Position numbers and translations under genes: made by a program. The notes beneath the pieces were generated by a model. It ran no database searches and was not told where the DNA came from. It was given only the letters and a program-made list of their open reading frames with translations. Positions 26,200 to 57,250 of a stretch of 64,000 nucleotides of DNA are shown here, piece by piece; within the stretch, counting starts at the first letter, position 1, and every line of letters starts with the position of its first letter. The DNA comes from Ptychodera flava (Eukaryota > Hemichordata > Enteropneusta > Ptychoderidae): contig NC_091935.1 of NCBI RefSeq assembly GCF_041260155.1, positions 6,997,501-7,061,500 of the forward strand, given 5' to 3'.

Positions 26200-27095
26200 G
26201 GCAGATTTGTACATAATTACCCCAATTTTATTTCCAACATCAAGTTAGAAAAATTTACTTTGAATTTGAAGTAAATTAAGTCCGAGTATCTGTATTTGGC
26301 ACCAGTATATTGCAAGTAGTTTTTCGTCCATAAAAATCACGTCACAAAAAATTATATCTTTCGCAGTATGGAGGATACGCATATTGCTTCGGGCTGATTT
26401 TTATTACTCAGATATCAAAACATAGTTTGTTTAATCACACTCGTTCAACGTAAATGCGATTCTAATTATAGTAATATTCCTATATAAAGTATTGCCAACC
26501 GAATTGTAAAATCCTCCATTTTAAAATGATTCAGAAGGCACATTACGGCACATCATATCTATATCTCTCCAATGTCGGACAGCAATTAGGTCATGTAACC
26601 CTATATCTGTGACTAATTTTTAATACCTTTCACAGCTACCAGCTTGCCACCATAATGTTGCGACAAACTCGGAATATTGGAACAAGAAGTGTCACTAAGT
26701 ACAAGTAACTCCTGTATATGTATGGCTTCACTGATTTACACTTGATTGCAGAATTTACTACTTGTGTTTTAGCGTTGGAAACCCTGTCAAGCAAGAAAGA
26801 GACATTGCGTTTGAAATGCATGGCGCCACCAACGAATACTTTGAATTGGCGACTGACAGTGCGCATATTTTTTGATCAGTTGATGTATGTGTGCTAGCAG
26901 AGCGATATCTTGATGTCATACTAGCTGAATCAAGTTCTTACAATTATGGCAATAGTGTTATCGTACGTATGTGTCTCTATAACACCAAGAAAAAATCGAC
27001 GAAGTGATTAATCATCGATAAATATGTTTCTTCGGCTCAGCGAAAATCTGAAAAGAAAGCAATATGCTTTGACTGATCAGGCGATGAACTGCAGT

Positions 27096-30000
27096 CTATA
27101 ACTTTGATTGATATCCCGGTACAGTGGGTACTCTATCTAAATGAAAGTCCGGTTCGTAGTTAGGGTCGTTGAGTGCCTCTCTGTCCAATTTGAAGGCATC
27201 TATAGGATATCGTGTAGCTCCATCGATGGCCATTTCACTGAGAATTTTACCAAAGAGGCCAACAAACCTAGAGAGAGAGAGAGAGAGAGAGAGAGAGAGA
27301 GAGAGAGAGAGAGAGAGAGAGAGAGAGAGAGAGAGAGAGAGAGAGAGAGAGAGACTTTATATCATATATTGGGCAGCAATTATGAGACAAGTTTTTTATC
27401 ATCATGTCATCCAACGCCATTTTGTTCCTTCAACAAAATTTTCCGTCCACTCTGTAACCTCCACAAATGTAATAATCTCCACAAATGTAATATCAACCAC
27501 AATTGTAATAAAATCAACCACAAATGTAATAAAATAGTCAACCATTAATGTAACAATCCGCAACCACAAATGTAATAAACAAATTAACCATAAATGTAAT
27601 AAAACTCAACCATAAATGTAATAAACTTGAACTTGCATATGTGATCATTTGTTTATCAATGCCCTGAGTAAATAATAATTTTAATAAGACTAGTGTAATG
27701 TTATTGCATACTTTCCTGAAACTAGGTTTCTTTTCCGAAACACGGAATAGAATACTTGGAGAACGCTATCAGAAAACGGCGAGGTACTGATCAAACCGCT
27801 AGATAATGGAAGTGGAACAGCAGTTCTAGACACTGATAATTACATAATAAGGAAGCGTCAAAATAACTTGTCAACCAGTGATACCACACAAACTTTATGA
27901 CAGATGACTCAGAACAAATAACAGAGAAATATAAAACCTTACAACAGAAACTTACGACACAAAACATGTTTACGAGAACATATATTTCAATCTTGTTAAA
28001 AACAATACGAACACTACCTTGAACACAGTAGAACAAAATTAGACATCCTGGCATCCCTAGTGAAGGAACAAACTTCAAGTGGGACACCATAGGAATACAG
28101 ACAATCTATTGATTATTCCACACAATTTGTCCACTGAAAACGAATTTGAGGCGATCGATTAAGAAAGTACGGCAATTTTCGAAAAAACGGCGTTAAAGGA
28201 TCGTAGTGTTATACAGTCTTCCCCACTCTGGAGTAGAGACTGCACTCAGTGACGTTCAGATTACAGCTGTGTCTAGCCATGGCCAATCAGTTCTGTACAC
28301 AAAACAGGGAAACGTAAAATACACTTTCAAATATGCAAAACACACTAAACGCAAACAATTAAGAAATGAATAATGTGTGGAGTTGCTTTCCTTAGTACAT
28401 AGATCAATATTTAAGGGCTAATTCCTCAATTGCAACGACAAAATAGATTTATTACATTTATGGTTGATAAGTATTACATTTATGGGTGATTTTTTTATTA
28501 CATTTATGGTTACCATTTATTACATTTGTGGTTGGTGTTTTCATTACATTTATGGTTGATTTTTGTTACATTTATGGGCGATATTACATTTATGGGTGCA
28601 TTTTATTACAATTATGGTTGATATTACATTTGTGGAGATTATTACATTTGTGGAGGTTACACACTCTACCGTTGACGAATCATGTTGTACTTCATGTTTT
28701 GCCGTTGCAGTTGCAAAAAAAGTGAACTTCAAGTACTCCTCTTTTTGTGATTGCCACACTTAGCCCGTATCATGATAGGACTCACTTGTACGCATGTCCA
28801 GCACCACAAAACAGAATAATCTGAGGATATCCCTTTTGCGCAAGCGTATCAATGACGTATTTACGATCCGGCGTCATATCATACAGACACGGTTTGCTAA
28901 AGAGGATAGGTCCAACGGCCTGAAATTAAGTGCAAAAAGTTAGACGTGAATTATGTATCTTAAAGTTTGACAATTTTAAATGTTAAAAAACACCACCTGT
29001 GCTGGTTCACGTCCTATATTTGTCATTTGTTTGCCTGTGTGGAATGATATCTGATATCAAGAAAAGCCACAAACATAGATAAATAAATCAATTATATCTG
29101 AATTATATCTGTCAATCTATCCTTTCATCCATCCGTCAAAGGGAGGTCAAGAGTTCGATGATTATATATATATATATATATATATATATATATATATATA
29201 TATATATTATATATATATATATATATATATATATATATATATATATATATACATACCAAAATGTATACAATGTGCCCTCCCGGTTATCACCATAATGGCT
29301 TTATGGCAACCTCTGAACTTGGGCACAGAGAGTACGGATATATATATATATATATATATATATATATATATATATATATATATATATATATATATATAGA
29401 TATATATATATATATATATATATATATATATATATATATGCACATACATATGTATATTATGTATATGTGTGTTCGTGTGTTGCGTGAGTGTATACATATA
29501 CTAGTATGTAAGAAAGTTTAAGTGACATATCATAATATTATAATACATAGATAAGATCTCATATAATAATATATAAAATTTTGTAAAATATGGTGTATTT
29601 CTTCTACTCGGTTTACTTGTGTGTCTACACTGTCATAAATGTGCATTCCTCACCTTTGGAACGTTTTCTTTCAGAAATTCTAGCGCTACCTGTTCCCTTT
29701 CCCGGTCCGGTTCACATGGCAGCGAGTCTGGAAGGATTTGTTTACCACTAGCGGTCATGCCTACCTTGACGCCGGTATTCCCGTGTATCGGAAAGCCATA
29801 GTGGAGGTACTTTGGAGACACGTACATGTACAAAGGGAAACTGCATAACAAAGACATGCAAGGTAATCACGGGTTATTTTTCATTCTTATACAAGCTGAT
29901 CACTCGGATCATTCTCAAAGTTCTACTCACATGCACACTTTGTGAAACTCCGAGCAACTGTGCAATACCTCGTAAGTTTAAAAAGGTTTTCCCCCGACTA

Positions 30001-55302: not shown

Positions 55303-55365
55303 CAATTATTTTTATTGTTATTATTATTGTTATTATTATTATTATTATTATTATTATTTATTTAC
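55303..55365. repeat. (ATT)n microsatellite
   Basis: Imperfect TTATTATTA run ending in ATTTATTTACTTATTT. Confidence 0.9.
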
Positions 55366-57250
55366 TTATTTTGGACTTCATGCCCGTCGATATACATTTT
55401 AGAATAGGACAAAATTTATTACGTGGAAAAAAACTAGATTTGCTCTTGGAAATACATTCCATACATATTGACTCAGTAAGAAAACTGTTGAGGTAATGTA
55501 TGCATGTTTTAGAAGGACAAGCAAACTTCACAGCCTGAGCTGCTGTGAGAGAGACTGCATTGTAAGAAAACATTGAGCAAGTACAGTAAAATGTGAGTTA
55601 TTGCAGGATTCAGTTTGTGTCTGGGATGGTCATAATTTTCGTCAGCTTTTGGAGCCTTCCATTCAGAAATAGTGTATTAAACCTTAACATAGGAGTTTTG
55701 ATGAGGAAGCTGTGGAGGGGAAAGTACCGGCTCTCCAAACTCCTCACACTTTATGGATATTACTTCTAGAATCTACCTTTCCATTGTTTGGCACAATACA
55801 TGTATGTAGTTATCCCTACCATACGTGATCACACCAGGAATTGTTGTAAGTGGGAACAATCTCCATCAATTTAGTCAGTTCTGTAATTCTTTACATACAA
55901 AACAGTCCCACAAAGACTTCACATGCAATTTTTGTATAGAACATTGCTCCCTATATCTAAACCTCCCTTTGTATTGATCCTACAATGTATACTTTGATGG
56001 GAACAAAAAATTCCAAAAATAGTTAGTCATGTATGAAATTAGGGATGTTGCTCTGGAAACCTTGTGGATCTCTAAACAATGCTAACTTGGTATTGCCAAT
56101 ATTTCTGCTCACTTTTCAAAAACTGAAAAGCTGGTTGGGAAAACTCTAACAGCAAATCATGCAGTTGTACATTTTTATTCATCACTTATAAGAAGTTCAA
56201 ATGCAAATTTCTTCACATAACTAATTGCAATTTTGATCTTGACATCAAATTCTCATACACTATCTACACCCTGCAAAATATTGACTTTGTTTATAATTAT
56301 GAAATTCTTCTCCGATTGAACAACAGAATTATTCACTGAAAAAAACTTTTCACTGCTACCCTTTCGTCTTACTACAAGTTTTCTTCTCCAAATAGCACGA
56401 AGCATAGATGAGAGCAGCAATAAAATCAAAGCATGTATCATATACATGCCTAGGCCTGCATGTGGTAATTCCCCCCCCACAGGATATAACTCATACAATC
56501 TTAGTGTATACATTGTGTCTGTATTATTATGGATGTCACTAAAAGCATAGGCAGTGTTGTGCTCCACTGTCCGTATTTAAAGAGTAAACATATGCAGACT
56601 TCTATGACAAACTGTACCTTTATATCAACTCATCTGATTTCATTGTTGTTCATATCAGAACTTTCGTGCAATTTGGATGAAAATATTTGTAACTCTTGAC
56701 ATCATTATTATTTCAGTACTATCTGATTAAAATCAGTTGAAGATACACGTCTCCCCATATTAAATGTAGGAAAGTGACAACAGCTGATGAGAATATCACA
56801 GAACAGAGAAGTTTGAAACAATGCCATCTCTTCTTCAAACATTCTGAAATCGCCCCTTTATGTATCTGTGATAAAATCTGTACTGGAAACATAATTTGGA
56901 GGGCAAGTGATTACACATGCATGTTTCACCCCAAAAGAAAAAAAAATGATCACATTAATTTCAAAAATTGGCAACTTTTCCCTTTTCTATATAAATTGAG
57001 AGCTGCATTCAGACAAAAGTAGTGGGAAGAGAATATAGGAAAGCTGCATTGAAATATTGCAACACTGCTTCAGAGACATGATATCAGTTCAAAAAAACTT
57101 CAGGTACTGAAAAATGCTGGTGATCATGTAACTTAATATGTTACTACACAAAGTTCAGTCACAGTTCAATTTCTTCTTTGTCTACAAATGACAGAAGAAA
57201 CTTCTATCACACAAACACAAACTTGACCATGGACCTCAGGGAAAATATTA

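Follow-up and report, generated by a model that had tools for sequence, protein, structure and literature searches.

A tandem duplication carrying an oxidase gene in the hemichordate Ptychodera flava, with one intact copy and one frame-broken copy

Introduction

Tandem gene duplication followed by the loss of one copy (nonfunctionalisation) is a known general kind of gene history. The locus described here resembles such duplicates in that its two copies are adjacent and in direct orientation, keep their introns, and comprise one intact and one frame-broken gene; it differs in that the loss appears to have come late after the duplication, and is otherwise typical. The gene concerned is related to monomeric sarcosine oxidase (MSOX), in which Arg49 and Lys265 are important (PMC5459902). 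In MSOX-like oxidases, FAD is held covalently through a cysteine and a lysine is required for the link (PMC6222107).

The window, i.e., the whole stretch of DNA that was analysed, comprises 64,000 nucleotides of contig NC_091935.1 (assembly GCF_041260155.1). A literature search found nothing on this duplication or locus, which is not a claim that it is unpublished. The case is an ordinary duplicate-gene history and by itself opens no long-standing question. It does offer a clean example of a duplicate gene that was long kept and whose loss apparently came late; nested insertions provide relative dates. Gene callers may annotate two oxidases at the locus, one of them chimeric or short.

Results and Discussion

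Two adjacent units in direct orientation

Self-comparison of the window with blastn returned ordered direct matches in which the left edges pair 26200 with 43501 and the right edges pair 43501 with 57116 (Table 1). Units 1 and 2 thus lie side by side, collinear and in the same orientation, as a tandem segmental duplication. The real units gave 31 blastn hits, versus none in each of 20 controls in which Unit 1 was Markov-shuffled. These results confirm the first-pass annotation, which had placed two collinear units head to tail at 43500/43501. It was also right about the sequences shared by the left edges (GGCAGAT) and the right edges (ACTGAAAAAT), base G43501 belonging to both edges as a one-base overlap of the abutting units. 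The edge bases read A/GGCAGAT on the left (26199/26200), AT/GGCAGAT at the junction (GG at 43501-43502), and ATG/CTGG on the right (G at 57116); the corresponding contexts are ...CGAG/GCAGAT, ...ACTGAAAAATG/GCAGAT, and ...ACTGAAAAATG/CTGG. Both edges of the duplication appear to lie between genes.

Table 1. Positions of the two units and their features within the window.
Feature	Position	Strand or orientation	Description	Basis or remark
Unit 1	26200-43501 (43500 without the shared base)		17,301 bp (17.3 kb)	blastn edges 26200/43501, 43501/57116
Unit 2	43501-57116	direct	13,616 bp (13.6 kb)	self-blastn, chained alignment
Unit 1 oxidase gene	27096-38525	minus	intact 414-residue coding sequence ending SKL	splicing model, GT/AG at 7 introns; PF01266 1.8e-42
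Unit 1 coding exons	38525-38420, 32589-32520, 32337-32146, 31544-31328, 30861-30695, 29840-29654, 28919-28786, 27267-27096	minus		
Unit 2 oxidase gene copy	44417-52286	minus	frameshifted	7 of 8 exons same length as in Unit 1, GT/AG at 7 introns
Unit 2 coding exons	52286-52181, 48724-48655, 48240-48049, 47506-47310, 46867-46701, 45667-45481, 45009-44876, 44588-44417	minus		
Unit 2 exon 4	47310-47506	minus	197 nt versus 217 in Unit 1	gaps of 1 nt (~47433/47432) and 19 nt (~47422/47421)
(GA)n microsatellite	27270-27354 (Unit 1); 44595-44672 (Unit 2)			(CT)n on the gene strand
(TA)n arrays	29163-29255, 29338-29466 (Unit 1); 45222-45297 (Unit 2)			
Edge island	43367-43500 versus 56981-57115		130 of 135 columns equal, 93 bp identical	right unit edge
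Post-stop island	26803-26907 versus 44099-44203		102 of 105 columns equal, 65 bp identical	~190-290 bp past the stop codon
Third alike block	42952-43199		222 of 248 columns equal	
Foldback-like element	27454-28660		private to Unit 1, intron 7; inverted tandem-repeat ends GTAACC.../...GGTTAC	~6-7 bp target duplication CCACTCT/ACACTCT; Unit 2 site empty
TIR element A	33440-35351		private to Unit 1; ~180-bp internal tandem repeats	TAA on both sides
TIR element B	38752-40845		private to Unit 1; same family as A, ~180-bp internal repeats	TAA on both sides; ~227 bp upstream of the Unit 1 start codon
212-bp TIR element	45965-46176		private to Unit 2; GCAC duplication	sister copy 17009-17218 with CATC duplication
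Extra 1.66 kb	53121-54784		private to Unit 2; edges approximate	chained alignment

A whole-unit MAFFT alignment (12,237 aligned columns at 70.4% identity) apparently paired insertions that are unrelated; chained blastn was used in its place and aligned 9,047 bp with 1,456 mismatches (16.1%). Outside the exons, 1,386 of 7,956 positions are mismatched (17.4% raw, JC 0.198; 280 indel events), and this JC value is a lower bound since the chained alignment omits unalignable parts and understates divergence. Microsatellites, which had been annotated as shared, are so in the case of the (GA)n array; the (TA)n repeat is present as two arrays in Unit 1 versus one in Unit 2 that can be aligned with either. 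On the gene strand, the (CT)n array stops just 5' of the acceptor AG of exon 8 in both copies, of which it seems to form the polypyrimidine tract. The earlier view that this was a genomic duplication and not retrocopying is supported, and retrocopying was set aside: the same seven introns lie between coding exons in both units, the intronic microsatellite is present in both, and the noncoding flanks align up to the edges.

The oxidase gene and its protein

Each unit carries eight coding exons on the minus strand, separated by seven GT/AG introns. The predicted Unit 1 protein runs from ATG to stop and ends in QSKL, in which SKL is a peroxisomal targeting signal. It matches the DAO family (PF01266), with an N-terminal FAD-binding GxGxxG, and scores 277.2 bits against the N-methyl-L-tryptophan oxidase model NF008425 of NCBIfam (cut-off 257) and 243.5 against TIGR01377 (soxA_mon), below the cut-off of 479.65. 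Amongst 21 distinct PDB sequences matched at E <= 0.001, the best is sarcosine oxidase 7exs (1.6e-49), and the sarcosine oxidase structures span E values from 1.6e-49 to 4.7e-42. Family scans of single reading frames were mostly empty (a DAO match in 2 of 10, one of them below the cut-off), and a PDB search with one exon as the query gave no match.

In the PDB-search alignments, MSOX residues Arg49, Arg52, Lys265, Cys315, and Lys348 have the equivalents Arg57, Arg60, Lys276, Cys324, and Lys358 in Unit 1, with Cys324, Lys276, and Arg57 identical in all three homologues compared. Cys315 is the residue that carries the flavin link in MSOX. His269 and His45 have roles in the active site of MSOX; both are histidine in 3/3 homologues, and Unit 1 has Thr280 and Gln53 in their place. 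The family match, the score against NF008425, the C-terminal SKL, and the equivalents of Cys315, Lys265, Arg49, and Lys348 are shared with the PIPOX, monomeric sarcosine oxidase, and N-methyltryptophan oxidase family. Unit 1 differs in the two replaced histidines, which may not be defining for the whole family, and in the absence of one residue from the GFSGHGF stretch. Judged from these matches, the Unit 1 product is a predicted flavoenzyme of the PIPOX/MSOX family, and its substrate is uncertain because of the two replacements, the shortened stretch, and the TIGR01377 score.

A frameshift in Unit 2 and the probable timing of the loss

The duplicated segment does hold a whole oxidase gene, as had been claimed; the claim overlooked, however, that the Unit 2 copy carries a frameshift. 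Exon 4 of this copy lacks 20 nt in two gaps that lie 11 nt apart in non-repetitive sequence, with two substitutions in between. Because the alignments of the homologues cover the missing stretch, the loss is placed in Unit 2. Beyond residue 147 the reading frame is shifted; it runs through 31 unrelated residues to a stop at 47340-47338, after 178 residues and in the fourth of eight exons. The equivalent of Arg57 lies 5' of the lesion, and those of Lys276, Cys324, Lys358, and SKL lie beyond it; exon 8 still encodes SKL, but past the frameshift. With its disabled reading frame, Unit 2 is most likely a young pseudogene, as read from its coding sequence. The remaining seven exons have the lengths seen in Unit 1 and GT/AG splice sites, and the only stop in the coding sequence is the one created by the frameshift.

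Across 406 codons, the two copies differ with dS 0.165 (bootstrap 0.115-0.224) and dN 0.039, a ratio of 0.233 (0.139-0.373) that, being pairwise, could hide relaxation in one copy. A pattern scan of genome contigs for outgroup DNA gave six pattern matches and no relative, so that per-branch rates are not separable. In simulations of neutral decay, mean numbers of 3.29 stops and 15.89 frameshifts accumulated at d = 0.08, compared with no independent stop and two adjacent gaps in Unit 2. The simulated probability that a coding sequence stayed free of stops and gained no more than two frameshifts was 0.752 at d = 0.005, 0.403 at 0.01, 0.107 at 0.02, and 0.007 at 0.04 (400 runs per d). These figures are rough, since the indel rates came from noncoding sequence and substitutions were modelled in a simple way. 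Set against a per-branch divergence of about 0.1 substitutions per site, the simulations suggest that Unit 2 probably kept its function through most of its history and that its loss is probably recent relative to the duplication.

The copies differ at 34 residues; at these, the numbers matching Unit 1, Unit 2, neither, or not covered were 1/7/18/8, 4/5/21/4, and 5/7/16/6 for the three homologues. All three match Unit 2 at sites 81, 255, 264, and 334, and at no site do all three match Unit 1. As the homologues are distant enzymes and few sites are decided, this comparison says only that, apart from the lesion, the Unit 2 protein is not visibly the more degenerate of the two.

Conserved noncoding islands

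Divergence is uneven along the units, with islands of approximately 96-97% identity compared with approximately 83% in the rest. The longest identical noncoding run, 93 bp, exceeds the maximum of 45 bp in 500 column shuffles, a test that assumes even divergence. This run and the 65-bp run each lie within one aligned block; an apparent 55-bp run at 41486-41605 and a maximum segment score of 172 were artefacts of bridging adjoining aligned blocks and were not used, and RNA folds of the islands, which came without a shuffled control, were not used either. The islands could be due to regulatory constraint or to local gene conversion. For the exons taken together, gene conversion was set aside, since dS is close to the noncoding JC distance and thus gives no sign of such recent conversion. 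Conversion confined to single exons or to the edge island may have occurred, in line with exon-wise dS values of 0.07 to 0.49 (on small counts) and with noncoding islands that are in some cases 97-100% alike. No match in the whole window reached the Rfam gathering score; at E <= 0.5, two matches in 26200-57400 both fell on (TA)n repeats, far below their gathering scores, and were judged spurious.

Proposed history and alternatives

The reading that we regard as likely is one of tandem copying, long purifying selection on both copies, and late loss of Unit 2, with Unit 1 as the working gene. An ancestral segment with a complete oxidase gene and its flanks would have been copied in tandem at the DNA level. 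Because the unit ends share one base only, end-joining or replication slippage is the more likely route; recombination between repeats, which needs homology at the edges, was set aside, and a short repeat since lost to divergence could still have been present. The copies then diverged, reaching about 0.2 substitutions per site in alignable noncoding sequence, and each gained its own insertions; the dN/dS ratio and the near-absence of disablements suggest that purifying selection acted on both coding sequences during most of this period. The 20 nt in exon 4 would then have been lost, probably recently, and with them presumably the catalytic half of the Unit 2 product together with its peroxisomal signal, leaving Unit 1 as the probable working gene.

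A challenge to this history at the level of the assembly, raised by the first-pass annotation and given room by the fact that a single assembly was seen, is that the two units represent diverged haplotypes of a single locus that the assembly placed in tandem. A noncoding mismatch of 17.4% is far above usual heterozygosity, and each unit carries insertions of its own at sites that are empty in the other. Moreover, the junction joins two specific edges, and the outer flanks are unmatched: blastn at E <= 0.01 gave no match between the 10 kb left of the pair and the 6.9 kb right of it, and no match between the units extends past their edges. Taken together, these observations make tandem alleles very unlikely.

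The remaining alternatives concern what became of Unit 2. A sequencing or assembly error in exon 4, with both copies functional, would fit the other seven intact exons, the seven intact pairs of splice sites, and the dN/dS ratio; however, gaps of 1 and 19 nt with two substitutions between them, in a non-repetitive context, do not resemble homopolymer errors, and this possibility seems unlikely, while the frameshift could also be a polymorphic null allele. An alternative donor ahead of the lesion (CAG/GTGGTG) might allow a shortened protein by joining exon 5 and skipping about 51 residues, as the part of exon 4 up to CAG ends in the phase (0) in which exon 5 starts. The site is weak by eye, however, and is present in Unit 1 as well, and the homologues align across the residues to be skipped; such a protein is highly improbable. 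We also give very little credence to the idea that Unit 2 was kept for a role other than that of an enzyme, in which case the islands would be regulatory or RNA elements strongly constrained in both units, and the frame-broken copy would act on Unit 1 as its regulator or be its noncoding partner.

Private insertions and the neighbourhood of the units

Private insertions sum to 5,213 bp in Unit 1 and 1,876 bp in Unit 2, a net 3.3 kb of the 3.7-kb difference in size. The foldback-like element, elements A and B, and the 212-bp element were inserted after the duplication or have been cleanly lost from the other unit, since the sister unit has empty sites. With TAA on both sides and terminal inverted repeats resembling GGGACTGGACAG, A and B are candidate nonautonomous elements of the PIF/Harbinger type, a superfamily whose target rule is TWA. 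The empty Unit 2 sites near 49015 and 52498, which correspond to the element sites at 33437-35354 and 38749-40848, read TGA rather than TAA, which counts against this identity and has no firm explanation. A Pfam scan for a link to a Harbinger transposase covered two short minus-strand open reading frames at A and B (33333-33518 and 39207-39482), neither of which matched a family. Tetris of Drosophila virilis (PMC4079207) is likewise a nonautonomous inverted-repeat element with tandem repeats of approximately 180-220 bp; its repeats lie within the terminal inverted repeats and it makes target duplications of 8-10 bp, whereas the repeats of A and B are central and TAA lies on both sides.

To the left of Unit 1 lies an open reading frame of 1,156 codons (21782-25252, minus strand) with a sulfotransferase domain, which is situated near the C-terminal end behind a long acidic, serine-rich stretch. 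To the right of Unit 2, an exon or open reading frame at 58366-58599 (minus strand) encodes a Pet100 domain, and an exon at 62407-62652 (plus strand) matches Fe-S_biosyn (iron-sulphur assembly) just below the cut-off. Elsewhere in the window, a 59-bp unit is repeated 13.9 times with 97% identity at 8170-8990, and a second foldback-like structure, an inverted pair of arrays of approximately 15-16 bp repeats (resembling CACTTCGCACCAAAAC), lies at 13884-14495, with exon-like parts of an aldo/keto reductase gene on either side.
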